Assembly (NCBI GenBank): GCA_946480695.1
Contig: CAMLKG010000010.1
Coordinates: forward strand, 1 to 64,000
Reading direction: 5' to 3'
From: an uncultured Cellvibrio sp.
Lineage (GTDB): Bacteria; Pseudomonadota; Gammaproteobacteria; Pseudomonadales; Cellvibrionaceae
DNA length: 64,000 bases
This document shows positions 27,238 through 38,923 of the stretch, piece after piece (position 1 is the first letter of the stretch; each line of letters begins with the position of its first letter). Position numbers and translations under genes: made by a program. The notes below the pieces were generated by a model that was given only the letters and a program-made list of their open reading frames with translations, was not told the DNA's origin and did not search any database.

Positions 27238-30200
27238 TTATTTAACAAATTCCAAATCCATCAGTCGTACTTCCGCTGCTGATTTTCCCTCCGCCTTTAG
27301 CCGGATATATAACTCAGTGTAATCATTCACTTCCCGGGTTAACGGTACCGTTACGCGTGAATAATTTGAGAGTTTTTCCGGTGTCGCACTAAAGGAGCCG
27401 AGCATTTCACCATTGGCATCGGATTGATAGATTTCTATTTTCCATTCAATGTTTTCACGTAAAAAATAGGCACCCAATATTAAATTTTTAATACCGGTTA
27501 AATCATATTTGCCAAAATTAAAACCCACCCAATCATTACCTGCTTTAAGGTTAATTACATCTTGCTCGCGATATTTATCAATACTCACCAATTTACCCAA
27601 TGATCCGGGATTAATGGTGCTGGCAAAATCCAGGCGGGGTGGCGTCAGCGAAAATTCTTTTTCTGTTTGGATAGCCGCCACGCCGTTTACACTTTTGTCC
27701 GTAAAGTTCACATTGAATTTGTAACCTTCTCCAGTTGTTTTGTAGGGCTCATCGGGTTTACCCGTGCCTTTGCCGTGGCCCTTTAATTCAACCACACCGA
27801 CAAGCGGCAAGGATTTAGGGGCATTGTCTTCCGTTAAGGACAATACATAGGTAGCCAGGGCAGTGCGATCCGCTTCGCTCAAACCGGAAAACGCGGGCAT
27901 ATTCATCTCGCCCCACACACCGCTGCCGCCATTACCGATTTTATCCACCAAATATTTCAAGGCTTTTTTATCTTTTTGATATTTTTGGGCAACATCGCGA
28001 AATGCCGGGCCGACAACTTTTTCATTAAGTTTGTGGCATGCCAGGCAATTATTAGCATCAACCAATGCCTTGCCCTGCTCCACCAGGCTCACATTTTGGT
28101 GGCCAAGGTCTTTTTCGGACAGCGCCGGTTGATAGTCGAATTGAATAAACGGATTATTATTTTCCACTGCGGTAATCATGCCGTCTTCTTTATCTTCAAT
28201 TGCAATCTCATACGCAAAACTGCGCGTATCTGGCCAATAGAAACTTTTATTCGCCGCTGATTTCAGCCGGATAACAGGCGGCTCATTACCGATAACCAAT
28301 GTTTGTTGTGTAGTTGCCCTGGCTCCCTGCGTGTCCGCCAGGGACAAATTCAATTGGTAAGTCCCGGGCTGGATGATATCCAATGTAATTTCCGGGTCGC
28401 TACCCAAACGATTTTCCACACAACCGGCGGCCGCGCACCGCAGTGTCCATTCGTATTGGATTTTATCGCCATCCAGGTCTAGCGATTCTTTTGCGGACGC
28501 GCGAATTTCCGCCGGAATTCCGGCCTGGGTTTTATCGATTCGGATATGCGCAACCGGTGGGCGATTGCCGGCGCCTACATATTCAATTCGCGATAACCGT
28601 GCGTCCGGGTTGCCAGTAAACCAGGACATGCCATATTCAAGCACGTATAGCGTGCCGTCCGGTGCGAAACGGGCATCAATAGGCAAGGCATAACTAATTT
28701 GCGGCGCAAAGGGTTCAATTTTTCGGACTCGCCCTTGCTCATCAAAACTTACCGCTTTAACCCAGGTGCGCATGAAATCCAGGATAAATAATTTATTGTT
28801 GTAGTAAGCGGGATAGCGATTGATCGACTCTGGATATTCGTCCGCATGGTACACATCTGCCACAATAGCGGTGCGCCCCCCGGTGCCCATTTCGGGAAAT
28901 TCCCCGGAAATTCCATAGGGGTAAGCAATGAAGGCCGGCTGCGCGGGGGGTAATGTTTTCGCACCGGTATTATTCGGGGAAATATTTAGCGGTGCAGCGG
29001 GATTCACCCAGTCACCGGCTTTCTTATTTTCATAATCATAGAATTTGTACGGATGATTTTTACCGATCACCAAAGGCCAGCCAAAATTACCCGCCGCAGT
29101 GACGCGATTGATTTCATCATATCCCTGCGAGCCTTTTTCATCTGAGTCTTTGCTCGCATCGGGGCCAACATCACCGTAAAACAAATGATTGGTTTTCTTA
29201 TCAAAGGTTATGCTGTAGGGATTGCGCGCGCCCATTACGTAAATTTCGAGGCGACCTTGCGCCGGATCAGTAAATAAATTTCCAGCCGGAATTTCGTAAC
29301 CACCCTCCGCTTTAGGAGTTATCCGTAACACCTTGCCGCGCAAGTCCATAGTGTTTCCCGCACCACGCAACGCATCATTTTTTTTCATACCCGCACGGAA
29401 ATCGACCGGCGCATAGCCATCCTGGTCGTGGGGATTGGTGTTATCTCCCGTAGAGAAAAATAATTCCCCGTTGCTACCGAACTGCAAATCACCGCCGGTA
29501 TGGCAACAATTATTATCAATGGGATATTCCAGCAATATTTGTTCAGAGGCCGCATCCACTTGCTGGTTGCTCCATTTAAACCGCGCAAGGCGCTGGCTTA
29601 ATTGTTTCTTTCCTCCAGTTTCATTTGCGACAGTATATGCCGCGTAAATCCATGGGTTGTTCGCAAAATCCGGATCTATTGCAACCCCGACTAGTCCCAG
29701 CTCCATAAACTTGTCGTAACCCACCTTGAGCGTACCAGCTTCAACCAAGGCTCCGGTTTTATAATCAACTCGCTGGAAACGACCGGGACGCAACGCAATC
29801 AATGCGTCACCGTTAGGAAAAAATGCCAGCTTTACCGGTTCATCCAGTTTTTCAACAAGTGTTTTTTTGATGAAACGGTTATCTTCCGGACGCACTTTGC
29901 TGTAGTCCAATTGCGGTTGGGCACCGTTGCGATGGTTCAGGCCAACCACGTATTCCAGCCCACCGGTTAAATGCTGCAAAAATTCCGGGTTGGAAAATGT
30001 TTCATCCGCGTGACCAAGCCCGGTGTAAAACGCCCTGCCGCCATCGTATTCGTGATACCAGGAAATCGGATGATCGTGATTGTGTTCCCCGCCCTGGTAG
30101 GTAGTTTCATCCACTTTAGCAATTACATGGATAAACTCGTAAAAATCGCGAAAGTTGTACCACTCATCCGCTAATGAAAAGGAATCCGGTAATGTCGCGG

Positions 30201-30783
30201 TTGATGGATGATTTTTATCGGTAACCAATACCTTGGCGGCTTGCACATTGCTGGGTTCATTGGGATGGTTTTTAAATACTGCGCCCACCAAATTGCGATA
30301 CCAAAACCAATCACCCTGCCATTCGGTATCCGTCGCGGAGTGGATGCCCACGAAACCACCACCGGCCTGGATAAACCGCTCCATGGCCAATTGCTGGGTT
30401 TCATCCAGTACATCACCAGTGGTATTTAAAAAAATCACGGCATTAAAATGGCGCAGGTTTTCATCGGAAAATTGCGTGGCATCTTCGGTGGCAACCAGGT
30501 TGAATTGGCGCTCGCTCGCCAGTTTTTGCAAAGCGATCAACCCGGCGGGAATTGATTCATGACGAAACCCGGACGTTTTACTAAATACCAGGACATGCGC
30601 GCCAATCAGGCTTGGCGGGTTCTTTGCCAGGGTAGATGTTTTCGCTTGGGTCCCTTTCCCTGGAGGTGTTTTTTGATCACAGGCCGCAAGCACAAATACC
30701 GAGATCAAACAGGTAATTAAAACTGTGGCGCGCTGCAAGAAGAAGGACCGAGGCACACGAAAAGGAGCCGTACACGGGAACAT
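27238..30783 (-). CDS. Giant lipoprotein: ThuA + PQQ-type sugar dehydrogenase + PKD + cytochrome c + CBM-like
   Basis: A predicted surface lipoprotein of 1181 residues from ATG 30783 (AGGGG upstream). The lipobox is FVLAAC with Cys35. Domains in order: ThuA-like (about 60-285, GGGFVGIHSATDTEWQ), glucose/sorbosone dehydrogenase-type propeller (about 300-735, HTGGDLQFG and MGARNPYSI), PKD-like (about 740-835), and a class I cytochrome c (about 895-985) with heme motif CLACH at 913-917 and a candidate axial Met at 962 (NMPAF). A C-terminal carbohydrate-binding-like beta domain (about 1010-1180) follows. The likely job is to oxidise a sugar and pass electrons through its own heme; the substrate is unknown. 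Such fusions are better known from Bacteroidetes and Planctomycetes. Confidence 0.85.
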   Translation of the reverse strand: MFPCTAPFRVPRSFFLQRATVLITCLISVFVLAACDQKTPPGKGTQAKTSTLAKNPPSLIGAHVLVFSKTSGFRHESIPAGLIALQKLASERQFNLVATEDATQFSDENLRHFNAVIFLNTTGDVLDETQQLAMERFIQAGGGFVGIHSATDTEWQGDWFWYRNLVGAVFKNHPNEPSNVQAAKVLVTDKNHPSTATLPDSFSLADEWYNFRDFYEFIHVIAKVDETTYQGGEHNHDHPISWYHEYDGGRAFYTGLGHADETFSNPEFLQHLTGGLEYVVGLNHRNGAQPQLDYSKVRPEDNRFIKKTLVEKLDEPVKLAFFPNGDALIALRPGRFQRVDYKTGALVEAGTLKVGYDKFMELGLVGVAIDPDFANNPWIYAAYTVANETGGKKQLSQRLARFKWSNQQVDAASEQILLEYPIDNNCCHTGGDLQFGSNGELFFSTGDNTNPHDQDGYAPVDFRAGMKKNDALRGAGNTMDLRGKVLRITPKAEGGYEIPAGNLFTDPAQGRLEIYVMGARNPYSITFDKKTNHLFYGDVGPDASKDSDEKGSQGYDEINRVTAAGNFGWPLVIGKNHPYKFYDYENKKAGDWVNPAAPLNISPNNTGAKTLPPAQPAFIAYPYGISGEFPEMGTGGRTAIVADVYHADEYPESINRYPAYYNNKLFILDFMRTWVKAVSFDEQGRVRKIEPFAPQISYALPIDARFAPDGTLYVLEYGMSWFTGNPDARLSRIEYVGAGNRPPVAHIRIDKTQAGIPAEIRASAKESLDLDGDKIQYEWTLRCAAAGCVENRLGSDPEITLDIIQPGTYQLNLSLADTQGARATTQQTLVIGNEPPVIRLKSAANKSFYWPDTRSFAYEIAIEDKEDGMITAVENNNPFIQFDYQPALSEKDLGHQNVSLVEQGKALVDANNCLACHKLNEKVVGPAFRDVAQKYQKDKKALKYLVDKIGNGGSGVWGEMNMPAFSGLSEADRTALATYVLSLTEDNAPKSLPLVGVVELKGHGKGTGKPDEPYKTTGEGYKFNVNFTDKSVNGVAAIQTEKEFSLTPPRLDFASTINPGSLGKLVSIDKYREQDVINLKAGNDWVGFNFGKYDLTGIKNLILGAYFLRENIEWKIEIYQSDANGEMLGSFSATPEKLSNYSRVTVPLTREVNDYTELYIRLKAEGKSAAEVRLMDLEFVK

Positions 30784-30855
30784 AAATAAACCCCTTATTT
30801 TTTTGATTGTGATGTATTGAATTGAGTCTAGTAAAAAAAGGAAATTCCGTCGGTG

Positions 30856-30891
30856 CAAATAAAAATGCCGCTGAGTGTATCAGCGGCATTC
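30856..30891 (-). terminator. Terminator of the hybrid kinase gene
   Basis: An 11-bp perfect stem AATGCCGCTGA / TCAGCGGCATT with a five-base loop. On the minus strand it is followed by TTTTATTT. It separates the hybrid kinase from the ThuA lipoprotein gene. Confidence 0.8.
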
Positions 30892-30969: not shown

Positions 30970-33168
30970 CTATGGGGATACCTTTTCCAGCCAGCGCTGC
31001 AAACGATTTTCCAAATCATCGTAACGGATCGGCTTGGCAATATAATCATCCATTCCCGCTGCGTAATATTCTTCCTGGTCTCCTTCAGATTGGGCCGAAG
31101 CAGTTACTGCGACTATGGGTAAATGGCGCGAGCTGTGGGTGTTACGTTCATATTGGCGAATTTTTTGGGTTGCCAGGAGGCTGTCTTCCTCCTTCATGTC
31201 GTAATCCATCAATACCAGGTCAAAGCGTTCTTTCTCGACAATTTCCACCGCTTCCAAACCATCGTAAGCAATTTGCACGTAGCAACCGAGCTTTTTCAAC
31301 ATGGCACTAATAACCATCTGGTCTACACGGTGATCTTCCACCAGCAAAACGCGAGGTATTACCGCAGGGGTATTCGCATCCCTGTCCGGCACCTTGCGCT
31401 CGTCCTCATTGCTTAAATTCAATAATTTTTGTACCGCGACATCGTGCAAGCGCCTGCGCATGATTGGCTTTTCAATCACTGCAACCTGTGGATAGCTGCG
31501 CAAATGCAATTTCATTTCCGGAATATCGCTTTGCAGAATGCTCATCGCGATAATTTGTTTAACAGGGGCGATTTCAGGGTGTGCAACAATTTCGCGGGAC
31601 AGTGCCAAACCATTCATATTGTTCAGTTTGGTAAAAATTAACACCAAATCAAACGGCGTGCCTGCATTCGCTTGCTCGATAAGGCGAAGGATAGCTTGTT
31701 CCTGCCCGGTCACAATGGCTGTGCTCATGCCCCAGGCATTAATTTCATCCGCCAGCGCATTCGCATTACTATCCGGTAAATCGACCAGCAGCGCACGTTT
31801 GCCGCGCAATTTTTGCTCGGAACCGAAACGACGCTCTTCATGTGACACCACCTGTAAGGCAACATTGATAAAAATGCGATTGCCGCGGTTTTTATTTTCA
31901 CGCAAGTGAATACTGCCGCCCATACATTCCGCCAGCCCTTTGCAAATTGCCAGGCCTATTCCGGTATGGTTACTTTCGTGTGCTTCAGGATCATTTTCTC
32001 CCGCCACATTTTTTTCACTGTCGCTGATGATAACTTGCAACTCACCGAAATCATCTTGCTCCTGGTGAAAACGCGCCTCGATAAACACGTGCTCAATGCG
32101 GCTCGCTTTCAGGGTGTGGTTTAATAAGGTGGCTAATATTTGATTTAAACGCGCTACGTCCCCTTTAACCCGCAATGGCATATTGGGATCAAACATATAA
32201 TAAAGTTCGATTCCTTGCTGATGGGCATCCAGCGTAAAATCTTGCACCAGTTTTTCCAGGATGCGCCGCAAATCAAATTCAACGTCGTCCAGCACCAGTG
32301 TCCGGGTCGTGATCTTGGAAAAGTCCACCACATTGTTAACCAGGTCAATCTGGCGTCCGGCAGCTTTATTGGCGGTACTCAATAATTCACGGTGATGTTC
32401 AGAAAGCTGGCTATCGTCGATTAATGACAAGGTGCTCATTACATCGCTAATGGATGAACGGATTTCCTGGCCCAGGTTAATCAGGAATTCATTTTTTAAT
32501 TCCATCTGCGCTTGGGACGTGCGCTTTTCGTTTTCCAAACCCTGGGCCCTTTCACGCAGGGCGTGATGGGCCTCCAGACGTTCCCAATAGGCCAATGATG
32601 TAACCTTACCCTGGTGTGACAGCATTATGTAGAACATCAACATAATACTGCCGTATAAAACGCCTTCCGCATTGCCGAGAAAAATAGCGGTGACCGCAGC
32701 AGGTATCTGGCCGATAGCAAGGTATAACCGCAAGAAATGCTGGTAGGGTGCGAATACATTCGCAACGCTGGAATAAAATACCACCGAATAGAGCCACATT
32801 ATCAATGTTTCATCGCGCATTCCCTGCACCCAGGTAAGCGTAACAAGAATGACGCTCCACCAGGCCGCCCCCAGGCATGAAGCAAAAAAGTATTGGTTAC
32901 GCCAGCGCGACGGTGCGCGAGCATACAGCGTGTCGAAGCGAAATAAATAGTAGCTGCGCACCAAGGTCACCAGCAACAGACCGGTAACCAGCACAATCGC
33001 CGTGTTGTGTTCCTTTTTTTCGAAATCGCCAAAGGCGAGACAGAGTACAAAAACAATAAAATTCAGGATTAATCCGCGACGGCTGTATTTGGCGACACGC
33101 GCATCAGTTTCACGCATAATCGCGCGATCTTTCTGCACCTTGCTGGCGGGAACAAAAAAATGAAACAT
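30970..33168 (-). CDS. Degenerate hybrid histidine kinase with two receiver domains
   Basis: A 732-residue membrane protein with about six N-terminal helices (33-185), a dimerisation segment, an HATPase-like domain and two receivers. The H-box reads FLINLGQEIRSS: Gln234 stands where the phosphoacceptor His is expected (compare SHEIRTP). The N-box (TLLNHTLKAS) and the first glycine box (ISDSEKNVAG) are also eroded, while HTGIGLAI remains. The first receiver (about 456-580) has lost its phosphorylation Asp (VLIFTKLNNMNG). The second (about 606-728) is intact with Glu611-Asp612, Asp655, Thr689 and Lys712. It probably cannot autophosphorylate and instead receives phosphate or acts as a scaffold. 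Confidence 0.85.
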   Translation of the reverse strand: MFHFFVPASKVQKDRAIMRETDARVAKYSRRGLILNFIVFVLCLAFGDFEKKEHNTAIVLVTGLLLVTLVRSYYLFRFDTLYARAPSRWRNQYFFASCLGAAWWSVILVTLTWVQGMRDETLIMWLYSVVFYSSVANVFAPYQHFLRLYLAIGQIPAAVTAIFLGNAEGVLYGSIMLMFYIMLSHQGKVTSLAYWERLEAHHALRERAQGLENEKRTSQAQMELKNEFLINLGQEIRSSISDVMSTLSLIDDSQLSEHHRELLSTANKAAGRQIDLVNNVVDFSKITTRTLVLDDVEFDLRRILEKLVQDFTLDAHQQGIELYYMFDPNMPLRVKGDVARLNQILATLLNHTLKASRIEHVFIEARFHQEQDDFGELQVIISDSEKNVAGENDPEAHESNHTGIGLAICKGLAECMGGSIHLRENKNRGNRIFINVALQVVSHEERRFGSEQKLRGKRALLVDLPDSNANALADEINAWGMSTAIVTGQEQAILRLIEQANAGTPFDLVLIFTKLNNMNGLALSREIVAHPEIAPVKQIIAMSILQSDIPEMKLHLRSYPQVAVIEKPIMRRRLHDVAVQKLLNLSNEDERKVPDRDANTPAVIPRVLLVEDHRVDQMVISAMLKKLGCYVQIAYDGLEAVEIVEKERFDLVLMDYDMKEEDSLLATQKIRQYERNTHSSRHLPIVAVTASAQSEGDQEEYYAAGMDDYIAKPIRYDDLENRLQRWLEKVSP

Positions 33169-33414: not shown

Positions 33415-33825
33415 TATCAGCATCGCCTGAATATAGTTAGGCCTGCAACCGGAGCCGCGCCGGAGCAAGCGGGAAAGCCTGCCGCCATTGTAACGAAAAG
33501 GCGAATTCAAGTTTAGCGTTAATCCCGGATTCCATTGGTTAATGGGTAAATCCTATCGAAAGGGATAAAGAACCACCCGGTGACATGTGACCGTTATTTA
33601 TCCAATTCCAACAGCCCTATTGTTCCCCCTGGTATTGATAGCGCGGGCGTCCAGCGCCAGATAACCCTTATCCGGTATGCCTCCACACAGGCACGGATAT
33701 TAACCGACGCGGTTATAGCCAGCCATGGCAGTGAGCCACAACTGGACGCATTCGCACGGTTCGCGCACAATCTGCACCCGTTCATGGTCTATCCACTTGC
33801 CCCAACGTTATCGGACATCGATTTT
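33415..33825. other. Intergenic region between DUF2788 and the coiled-coil lipoprotein
   Basis: No gene is supported. A frame in phase with the downstream lipoprotein is open from 33580, but it shows no signal peptide or domain before ATG 33826. No clear promoter or terminator was found. Confidence 0.5.
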
Positions 33826-36381: not shown

Positions 36382-37569
36382 TCAGGAAAGTCTCTGCTTG
36401 AAATCGCTATAACCGAACTCACGGATAACCGCGAGTTCGTCTGTCCGTGAATCCCAAATGGCGATAGCGGGTAAATTAATACCGTTAAACGTGGTGGTTT
36501 TCACCATGGTGTAATGAGCCATGTCATCGAACATTAACCGCTGGCCAATGTGTAACGGTTGCGCGAAGGAATAATCACCAATCACGTCGCCTGCCAAACA
36601 GGTCATGCCCCCCAAACGATATGTATGAGCCAGTTCATTTGGCATTGCCGCACCCAGAATATCCGCGCGATACGGCATTTCCAGCACATCCGGCATATGG
36701 CATGTTGCGGAAGTATCCAATATTGCCTGGGATATGCCATTCCAGGTTATATCCAACACTTCCGTTACCAGGACACCACTACGAATCGCGACAGCTTCGC
36801 CCGGCTCCAGATAAACCTGCAAGCCAAATTCCTGGCGGAATTGCTTAATCATATCGATAAGCCCATCGACTTGATAATCCTCGCGACTAATGTGATGGCC
36901 CCCACCAAAATTAATCCATTGGATATGCTTGAAATATTTTCCAAATTTTTCCTTTACGGCGGACAGGGTCCTCTGCAATGGTGGCAAATTTTGTTGGCAG
37001 AGCGTATGGAAATGCAAACCCGAAATCCCATCCAGGATATCCGGATATTGTGTCACTGCCTTTTCAAATTCAGCAGCCGGCACTCCCATACGCGAGCAAG
37101 GTGAACAGGGATCGTACAGCGCCACATCTCCCTCTGAATGTTCCGGGTTGATGCGAATACCGAAGTGCAATTCAGGGCGTTCACGTTGCGCGGCGAGCGC
37201 CATGGATTTAAAACGCGACCACTGCGAGAACGAATTAAATACCAGGTGATCTGCGACCTTCAGGATTTCAATCAGATCGGATTCCTTATAGGCGGCGGAA
37301 TAACAGTGAACCTCCCCGCCAAATTCCTCGCGTCCCAAACGCGCCTCATGCAAACCGCTGGCACAGGTACCGGAGAGATATTTTTGGAACAAAGGAGCAA
37401 GCTTCCAACAAGAAAAAGCCTTGAGCGCAGCAAGGATTTTTGCACCGCTTTCACGTTGTACGCGATGCAGGATTTTTAAATTATCCTCAACAGCAGCTTT
37501 ATCAACCACAAAACAAGGTGAAGGCACACGGCCAGGATTGAAGTGTGTGAAATATTCGCGTTTCTGCAT
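36382..37569 (-). CDS. nspC: Carboxynorspermidine/carboxyspermidine decarboxylase
   Basis: A PLP enzyme of the alanine-racemase fold that decarboxylates carboxyspermidine (or carboxynorspermidine) to spermidine (or norspermidine). The PLP lysine is Lys50 in ILAALKAFSCWKL. Other family blocks are GIRINPEHSEG, GLHFHTLCQQ, WINFGGGHHI, YLEPGEAV and ATCHMPDVLEMPYR. At 395 residues it is full length. It is the last step of the pathway and sits 157 bases downstream of the dehydrogenase gene. Because putrescine is made here, spermidine is the more likely product. Confidence 0.94.
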   Translation of the reverse strand: MQKREYFTHFNPGRVPSPCFVVDKAAVEDNLKILHRVQRESGAKILAALKAFSCWKLAPLFQKYLSGTCASGLHEARLGREEFGGEVHCYSAAYKESDLIEILKVADHLVFNSFSQWSRFKSMALAAQRERPELHFGIRINPEHSEGDVALYDPCSPCSRMGVPAAEFEKAVTQYPDILDGISGLHFHTLCQQNLPPLQRTLSAVKEKFGKYFKHIQWINFGGGHHISREDYQVDGLIDMIKQFRQEFGLQVYLEPGEAVAIRSGVLVTEVLDITWNGISQAILDTSATCHMPDVLEMPYRADILGAAMPNELAHTYRLGGMTCLAGDVIGDYSFAQPLHIGQRLMFDDMAHYTMVKTTTFNGINLPAIAIWDSRTDELAVIREFGYSDFKQRLS

Positions 37570-37726
37570 GGCATAACCTGTATTCAGGCGTGACTGGTAA
37601 TTGCTATCGGCAAATAGCGCGTTTTTTCATCCGGCATGATATTTCAACCTTCACGCCATAAGTGGCAACACGGGCGTTTAATACTTTCAAATACCATGCT
37701 GGATGAACAACAGGTTCAAAGGAAAA

Positions 37727-38923
37727 TTATTTCATGAGGCCTGGATCAATATCCACAACTTGCCATGGCAAACCGTATTTGTTGAGGTCTTCCATAAACG
37801 GGTCCGGGTCATGCTGCTCCATATTCCATACACCCGGCTTTTTCCATTTTCCCTCCAATATCATTTTTGCACCGATCATTGCCGGCACACCGGTGGTATA
37901 GGAAATAGCTTGTGATTTTACTTCGCGATAGCATTCCTGGTGATCACATACGTTGTAAACAAAGACCGTTTTCGGTTTGCCATCCTTAATACCTTGTACC
38001 AAACAACCGATGCAGGTTTTACCTTTAGTTAAGGGGCCAAGGCTCGCCGGATCAGGCAGTAGCGCTTTCAAAAATTGCAGCGGGACTATTTCACGCCCCT
38101 CGAACATAACCGGCTCAATGGAAGTCATGCCCACATTGCCCAATACTTCCAAATGCTTTAAGTAATTGTCAGAAAAAGTCATCCAGAAACGTGCGCGCTT
38201 GATTTCCGGGAAATGCTTCACGATGGATTCAAGCTCTTCGTGGTACATCATATAGATTTTCCGGGGACCGATGTCCGCAGGGAAATCAAACAGCTGGGTT
38301 ACCGACAAGGGCGGCGTCTCCACCCAATTACCATTTTCCCAATAGCGGCCATTTGCCGTTACTTCCCGGATATTAATTTCCGGATTGAAATTGGTTGCAA
38401 AGGGTTTTCCATGATCACCGGCGTTGCAATCGATAATATCCAAATAATGGATTTCATCGAAATAATGTTTTTTCAAATAGGCGGTGTAAACATTCGTTAC
38501 CCCTGGATCAAAACCTGAACCCAATAACGCGGTGATGCCCGCATTTCTAAATTTATCCTGGTATGCCCACTGCCAGGAATATTCAAATTTGGCGGTATCC
38601 AATGGCTCATAGTTTGCCGTATCAAGATAATCCACTCCTGTTTCAAGGCAGGCATCCATGATGTGTAAATCCTGATAAGGCAAGGCAACATTAATGACCA
38701 AATCCGGCTTCTCAGCGTTAATCAATGCGACCAGTTGGGGAACCTTGTCGGCATCCACTTGCGCTGTTTTAATGGGGCGGTTTAATTGCGCTGCTATAGC
38801 CTTGCATTTGGATTCAGTGCGGCTCGCCAGTACAATTTCCGAAAACACTTCGGGCAATTGCGCACATTTATGCACAACAACCCCGCTCACACCGCCAGCA
38901 CCAATGATTAACACTTTTGCCAT
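37727..38923 (-). CDS. Carboxynorspermidine (carboxyspermidine) dehydrogenase
   Basis: A saccharopine-dehydrogenase-like enzyme that condenses aspartate semialdehyde with putrescine (or diaminopropane) and reduces the Schiff base with NADPH. The Rossmann motif is VLIIGAGGVSGVVVHKCAQ at the N-terminus. LGSGFDPGVTNVYTAY and IDCNAGDHGKPFATNFNPE are characteristic of the group. It has 398 residues, and GGAG lies eight bases before the ATG. It lies between the decarboxylase and speA on the same strand, so the three form a polyamine cluster. Confidence 0.93.
   Translation of the reverse strand: MAKVLIIGAGGVSGVVVHKCAQLPEVFSEIVLASRTESKCKAIAAQLNRPIKTAQVDADKVPQLVALINAEKPDLVINVALPYQDLHIMDACLETGVDYLDTANYEPLDTAKFEYSWQWAYQDKFRNAGITALLGSGFDPGVTNVYTAYLKKHYFDEIHYLDIIDCNAGDHGKPFATNFNPEINIREVTANGRYWENGNWVETPPLSVTQLFDFPADIGPRKIYMMYHEELESIVKHFPEIKRARFWMTFSDNYLKHLEVLGNVGMTSIEPVMFEGREIVPLQFLKALLPDPASLGPLTKGKTCIGCLVQGIKDGKPKTVFVYNVCDHQECYREVKSQAISYTTGVPAMIGAKMILEGKWKKPGVWNMEQHDPDPFMEDLNKYGLPWQVVDIDPGLMK

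Follow-up and report, generated by a model that had tools for sequence, protein, structure and literature searches.

A conserved hybrid histidine kinase of Cellvibrio and its relatives that lacks its catalytic motifs and may act as a pseudokinase on a partner sensor kinase

We describe a hybrid histidine pseudokinase of 732 amino acids (AA), the whole gene of which lies at positions 30970..33168 on the minus strand of a 64,000-nucleotide stretch of DNA from an uncultured Cellvibrio sp. (the window), as defined by the ORF call, Pfam and an alignment of homologues. Judged by the sequences compared, the replacement of its phosphoacceptor His by Gln234 and the loss of its kinase motifs are a conserved trait of a family of proteins, not a mutation of one strain. 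With a probability of roughly 55%, we regard the protein as a conserved, catalytically dead hybrid kinase that modulates a partner kinase through contacts of its DHp domain, and the second receiver of which is phosphorylated in trans.

The protein begins with a membrane sensor domain (residues 1-200; 32569..33168, minus strand, as are all features of the gene), which matches no Pfam family at E values of up to 1, contains at least five hydrophobic segments and is predicted to form six long helices. It is followed by a HisKA/DHp domain recognized by Pfam (residues 214-290; 32299..32529), a degenerate HATPase_c (CA) domain defined by Pfam and alignment (residues 295-440; 31849..32286), a pseudo-receiver, REC1 (residues 450-590; 31399..31821), and a receiver, REC2 (residues 604-730; 30979..31359). 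Over the whole protein, the Pfam scores in bits were 31.8 for HisKA (cut-off 26.9), 38.6 for HATPase_c (26.4) and 100.4 for Response_reg (30.2), the latter covering two stretches. Translation and alignment place Gln at codon 234 (32467..32469), where the phosphoacceptor His is expected, so that the H-box reads LGQEIRSS. The N-box is a remnant (residues 343-356; 32101..32142) with His351 at the position of the Asn, and the DxGxG of the G1 box has been reduced to DSEKN (residues 383-387; 32008..32022), without glycines, while the G2 box GIGL (residues 403-406; 31951..31962) is retained. REC1 carries Phe512 (codon 31633-31635) in place of its Asp; REC2 keeps the catalytic residues Glu611, Asp612, Asp655 (codon 31204-31206), Thr689 and Lys712. 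All of these features, namely the lost His, the eroded N-box and single glycine box, the first receiver devoid of its Asp and the intact second one, had been proposed in the initial annotation, and they stand. As far as motifs can tell, the residues for ATP binding and autophosphorylation are absent and the protein is unable to work as a normal kinase: its fold makes it a hybrid histidine kinase, whereas its activity, on this evidence, does not. Its structure was modelled with a pLDDT of 80.8 and a pTM of 0.48, and the best PDB matches of the model were ShkA (E 2.5e-20) followed by GacS, the RetS-GacS complex and RetS.

The same losses recur throughout the closest relatives. Identity to the window protein is 99% for the nearest of the matches listed and 90% for the orthologue of Cellvibrio mixtus, and an alignment of the window protein with the best 120 of 619 matches, at an identity of at least 60%, has Gln at residue 234 in 112 of 121 rows, His in eight and Tyr in one. 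In these 121 rows the REC1 Asp never occurs, Asp655 is found in 119, and Glu235, Arg237 and Lys712 are invariant; in all eight rows with His at residue 234, His also replaces the N-box Asn and the paired glycines of G1 are missing. This is the comparison of orthologues that the initial annotation had proposed as a check. On a wider scale, a search with the sensor domain across 144 genomes of the family to which C. mixtus belongs gave a single match in each of 130 and no match in 14, and these 130 loci constitute our family set. The ORF reaches at least 690 AA in 128 of them, the sole shorter ones being L072:8904-10463 (520 AA) and L077:8809-9723 (305 AA). The alignment, together with the single match in 130 of 144 genomes, rules out a strain-specific mutation.

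Across the 130 loci residue 234 is Gln in 70, His in 23, Ser in 11, Asp in six, Asn in five, Gly and Lys in four each, Arg and Ala in three each and Thr in one. The N-box Asn is present in eight, G1 in 50 and G2 in 75, and all four kinase motifs coincide in a single locus (L041). The initial annotation had held that orthologues with an intact H-box would mark the loss as strain-specific. His-bearing orthologues do exist; however, a His in an orthologue does not amount to an active kinase, because 16 of the 23 lack the N-box Asn and only one locus of the 130 has all four motifs. The REC1 Asp occurs in none of the 130 loci (two have no letter at this position). REC2, which we call intact when it has acidic residues at 611 and 612, Asp655, Thr or Ser at 689 and Lys712, is intact in 84 of the 130 loci and not in the remaining 46. 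Within the clade of the window, by which we mean the 13 loci that group next to it, the REC2 residues are kept in 12, the exception carrying Asn at 612. At least one further Cellvibrio, C. polysaccharolyticus (P0117, on the contig of L146), falls outside this clade and has Ser at 612.

Homologues from outside the family indicate what was lost. When 390 genomes of the order were searched with a profile, 59 matched at E values of up to 1e-80, 18 of them within the 144 of the family, and our outside set consists of 20 of the 41 non-family genomes at 1e-80 or better, mostly from the top of the list. All 20 loci share the architecture of the family; 16 have all four kinase motifs, REC2 is intact in all 20, and the REC1 Asp is present in five. 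Family and outside sensors align over 200 columns with an hhalign probability of 99.95% (E 5e-38), the two sub-alignments having both been cut from one joint alignment. Since motif-complete homologues outside the family have the same sensor and architecture, the ancestor was most likely, on sequence grounds, an active hybrid kinase whose motifs were lost within the family. Among the C. mixtus paralogues matched, the five closest all carry SHEIRTP. Loss of the REC1 Asp is another matter: of the 15 outside relatives that lack it, 11 have all four kinase motifs, and, according to the available part of PMC7010744, a pseudo-receiver between CA and REC2 is a widespread feature, shared by GacS/BarA and RcsC. 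The loss of REC1 is older than that of the kinase and of a common kind, and we rule it out as a special feature. The selective decay around one intact receiver that the initial annotation had perceived is thus only partly upheld: the kinase loss is conserved and the protein selected, but the loss in REC1 is not recent and no more than 84 of 130 loci retain an intact REC2. The kinship of family and outside loci rests on sensor and architecture because no adjacent gene is common to both among the 45 neighbour clusters compared (each present in at least ten loci); two clusters are shared with three of the 20 outside loci each, approximately 4-6 kb away. The outside loci (L163-L182) have surroundings of their own: 15 of the 20 have an NAD-binding/epimerase-like gene approximately 30 bp downstream, and 13 have, approximately 100 bp upstream, the gene of a protein of approximately 467 AA, one of which was tested and showed no Pfam family. 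We also note that the sensor, despite having no Pfam name, is common to kinases outside the family and is a candidate for a new sensor-domain family.

Could the protein simply be a relict that is decaying without a present function? The erosion is graded between clades, two of the 130 ORFs are shortened, and at least ten changes between His and another residue are counted on a quick tree, a figure that takes the uncertain alignment of the most eroded rows at face value and comes from a tree without L077 in which 48 of 147 inner branches are open. Such decay is nevertheless highly improbable, given the ORF lengths, the single match in 130 of 144 genomes, the confident full-fold model obtained for the most eroded clade and the substitution pattern. 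In the clade of the window the median dN/dS was 0.01 for DHp and 0.03-0.055 for the other domains, highest for REC1, as estimated from those of the 91 pairs that had a usable dS (15 to 58, depending on the domain), with dS near saturation (means 1.8-2.0) and most pairs dropped for some domains. By these sequence measures the gene is under strong purifying selection and is not decaying, and dN/dS, ORF length and predicted fold together rule out random decay.

Mean p-distances among the window protein and its 13 clade loci were 0.048 for DHp, the most conserved domain, 0.088 for the sensor, 0.128 for CA, 0.201 for REC2, the second fastest-evolving, and 0.212 for REC1. Conservation of DHp is in itself no proof of a new role, because DHp also has the lowest p-distance (0.224) in ten kinase-competent outside homologues, in which REC2 reaches 0.264 and the sensor 0.521. 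Acceptance of phosphate is not the common function, because REC2 evolves fast in the clade of the window and, in the family, is intact in no more than 84 of 130 loci. A simple phosphate scaffold is likewise disfavoured by the lack of an intact REC2 across the family and by an eroded clade that keeps the fold without most catalytic residues.

In the Microbulbifer-type clade of 49 loci (Microbulbifer with Biformimicrobium), codon 234 encodes Gln in 49 of 49 (47 CAG, two CAA), as it does in all 49 listed protein clusters P0241-P0289. A purine-to-pyrimidine change in the third base of this codon would give His, and none of 72 fourfold-degenerate sites in the clade is equally free of purine-pyrimidine variation, in a control that ignores relatedness and codon bias. 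On this comparison Gln234 appears to be held by selection in the Microbulbifer-type clade. In the clade of the window, Gln234 is present in 14 of 14, yet 15 of 158 fourfold sites are equally invariant, making it a weak control. One reading of a selected Gln is that the protein is a dedicated transmitter phosphatase, in which Gln234-Glu235-x-x-Ser238 would set a water molecule against the aspartyl-phosphate of a partner receiver. The invariance of Glu235 and Arg237 among the best 120 of 619 matches and the window protein fits this, as do reports, in the accessible parts of the sources, that RetS dephosphorylates GacS via HExxT (PMC5992135) and that the Gln of the NarX DxxQ motif is proposed to act on water (PMC5727384). 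However, both the His and the Thr at H+4 are reported to matter for the phosphatase activity of HK853 (PMC5727384), and DivL, with Tyr at the position of the His, is described as having neither kinase nor phosphatase activity (PMC4211667). Moreover, Gln, His and Tyr interchange among the relatives of the window protein, and in the 99 family loci with the H-box core (F228, E235 and R237; Gln in 67, His in 19) the residue at H+4 is Ser 70 times and Thr 16 times, while the Pro at H+5 is missing from all 99 as opposed to being present in all 20 outside relatives. We therefore consider a phosphatase of this kind improbable.

We return to a dead kinase acting through its DHp domain, for which there are precedents. 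RetS of Pseudomonas aeruginosa, which acts on GacS, shares with the window protein the order HisKA - degenerate HATPase - REC - REC and the Asp of REC2, and the kinase region of RetS ranks with the best matches by both fold and sequence. The likeness would extend to the degenerate HATPase, here recognized from the loss of motifs, and to a phosphorylatable REC2, here suggested by the presence of Glu611, Asp612, Asp655, Thr689 and Lys712. According to the available sections of PMC5992135, RetS has a degenerate HATPase, accepts phosphate from GacS on Asp858 of its REC2, acts as a transmitter phosphatase and inhibits the autophosphorylation of GacS; they also give a REC1 Asp (D713) that is missing from the window protein. 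The two further differ at the phospho-His, which is Gln here, so that the RetS phosphatase motif HExxT reads QExxS (QEIRS), and in the sensor. RetS carries a 7TMR-DISM sensor; Pfam found none in the window protein. For lack of both this sensor and HExxT, we rule out that the protein is a RetS orthologue; the JGI label 'RetS' on P0001 and others is the source's own name. Two of five Cellvibrio genomes contained 7TMR-DISM matches, three in all, and the other three genomes contained none; one match fell below the cut-off, and the ORFs concerned, of 151, 650 and 662 AA, are too short for RetS.

DivL, of the Caulobacter DivK-CckA pathway, resembles the window protein in that its His is replaced clade-wide and the kinase fold is kept; PMC4211667 further describes poor binding of ATP and provides a precedent for a fixed and useful loss of the phospho-His. 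DivL has a PAS sensor, a Tyr and a C-terminal kinase module, unlike the multi-helix membrane sensor, Gln and two receivers found here, and, having no PAS domains and no Tyr in place of the His, the window protein is not DivL. The best fold match, ShkA of Caulobacter, with its c-di-GMP-binding pseudo-receiver, has the same DHp-CA-pseudoREC-REC layout, including a REC1 without Asp between CA and REC2 (Phe512 here), but is an active kinase in the available portion of PMC7010744. Finally, the consulted part of PMC9491836 reports on a ChrS variant of Corynebacterium glutamicum which, although inactive as a kinase, continues to influence a paralogous system; unlike the protein described here, it is the product of a frameshift in laboratory evolution and not a natural conserved family.

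By analogy, the window protein most likely works as RetS does on GacS or DivL on CckA, without our claiming that it is either. The membrane sensor would set the conformation of the DHp dimer, and the pseudokinase would modulate a partner sensor kinase by protein contact, possibly a GacS-like kinase of Cellvibrio. Asp655 of REC2 may take phosphate from the partner kinase or from a phosphotransfer protein, serving as a sink or as a read-out of status. GacS is a candidate partner by presence only: C. mixtus encodes a protein with the domain order of GacS, HAMP-HisKA-HATPase-REC-Hpt, although the GacS-like matches passed the curated cut-off of the BarA model in none of six genomes. A search of gene order for a partner found no response regulator among ten annotated neighbour families. 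Speaking against a RetS-like mode of action is the most eroded clade, in which DHp, CA and the receivers diverge far more than the sensor.

Gene order offers a different lead. The gene for a small membrane protein, DUF2788 (PF10981; 33217..33510, minus strand), lies 48 bp upstream of the pseudokinase gene, the listed TTG start of its ORF being probably too far upstream. In 95 of the 130 loci (92 when overlapping stop-to-stop frames are left out) a DUF2788 gene immediately precedes that of the pseudokinase on its own strand. Of the 35 loci without it, 23 genomes were searched; 13 had a DUF2788 gene, located approximately 1.7 kb upstream in two of these (G012 and G013), and ten had none. Its product may well be an accessory subunit, as the gene order suggests; no paper containing 'DUF2788' was found. 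The electron-transfer-flavoprotein genes etfA and etfB are each upstream of the pseudokinase in 54 of 130 loci; in 44 loci etfA shares its strand and is no more than 600 bp away. ETF-QO is present in 43 of the 130. C. mixtus is among those in which etfB and etfA precede DUF2788. By clade, the loci with etfA upstream number 25 of 26 in the most eroded clade, 10 of 13 in the clade of the window, none of 49 in the Microbulbifer clade and 19 of 42 among the others. No ETF genes are present in the window or in the 20 outside loci, and in place of etfB and etfA the window has a divergent ORF of 321 AA that starts 69 bp past the DUF2788 ORF (gap 33511-33579). The neighbourhood of DUF2788 and etfA hints at a redox link.

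Other neighbours are less widespread. The next gene downstream (27238-30858, minus strand) encodes a protein of 1206 AA with ThuA, glucose/sorbosone dehydrogenase and cytochrome c domains and a PKD match below its cut-off, and a similar sequence is found downstream of the pseudokinase in 14 of 130 loci. Two ORFs at 36382-38923 (minus strand), which we take to encode carboxynorspermidine decarboxylase and dehydrogenase, occur near the pseudokinase in 10 of 130 loci.

The most eroded clade, comprising 26 loci that we cut from the quick tree and having its named relatives in Teredinibacter, Agarilytica, Thalassocella and Agaribacterium, has lost most catalytic residues, and the pseudokinase gene in this Teredinibacter-type clade stands directly behind electron-transfer-flavoprotein genes. 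Largely gone are the phospho-His, the motifs of the ATP site, and the Lys and acidic pair of the receiver. In Pfam, one member matched HATPase_c alone (E 0.02), with no HisKA or receiver match. According to a rough alignment of 112 proteins of this clade, His234 is present in four, the Asp655 position is Asp in 64, and Lys is outside the eight commonest residues at 712. Divergence is 0.353 for the sensor, the best-kept domain, against 0.574-0.762 for DHp, CA and both receivers. Nevertheless, when the protein of T. haidensis was modelled with 112 sequences (pLDDT 91.2, pTM 0.77), the model comprised the helices of the sensor as well as DHp, CA and two receiver folds, and its Foldseek matches in the PDB include ShkA, GacS, RetS and DivL; the clade is thus predicted with confidence to retain the complete sensor-DHp-CA-REC-REC fold.

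These observations allow the view that the membrane sensor, linked to ETF or DUF2788, does the conserved job of the family, the cytoplasmic part being a structural module that signals without phosphate chemistry. The clade in which the sensor is best conserved has etfA in nearly every locus and yet is modelled as a complete fold, as this view would have it. Against it, ETF genes are absent from the window, the Microbulbifer clade and the outside loci, and a query with C. mixtus etfA, which matched in seven of eight genomes of the clade of the window and its near kin, found the gene beside the kinase in four, only elsewhere in three and not at all in G020. Neighbourhood, furthermore, is not function; DHp and not the sensor is the most conserved domain in the clade of the window, where the REC2 catalytic residues are kept, and Asp at the 655 position persists in more than half of the eroded-clade proteins, if the rough alignment is followed. 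We regard this view as possible but doubtful. More speculatively, and in our estimation somewhat unlikely, a hybrid kinase may have given rise to a receptor family free of phosphotransfer, which would sense the redox or quinone state of the membrane and signal by conformation alone, the window protein with its dead kinase and live REC2 representing an intermediate stage.

Pseudokinases as such are already known, and what is new here is another variant among those derived from bacterial histidine kinases, of which we encountered few descriptions (RetS, DivL and a ChrS variant); among the literature matches listed, no paper on this protein was recognized by title and start of abstract. The family provides a graded series, which starts with motif-complete homologues, passes through a kinase that is dead but has a live receiver and ends in a fold from which most catalytic residues are gone. 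Several of the bacteria concerned, among them Cellvibrio, Microbulbifer and Teredinibacter, have been cultured. It is therefore testable which domain carries the function after catalysis has been lost, and whether ETF metabolism is the input or the output of the system.
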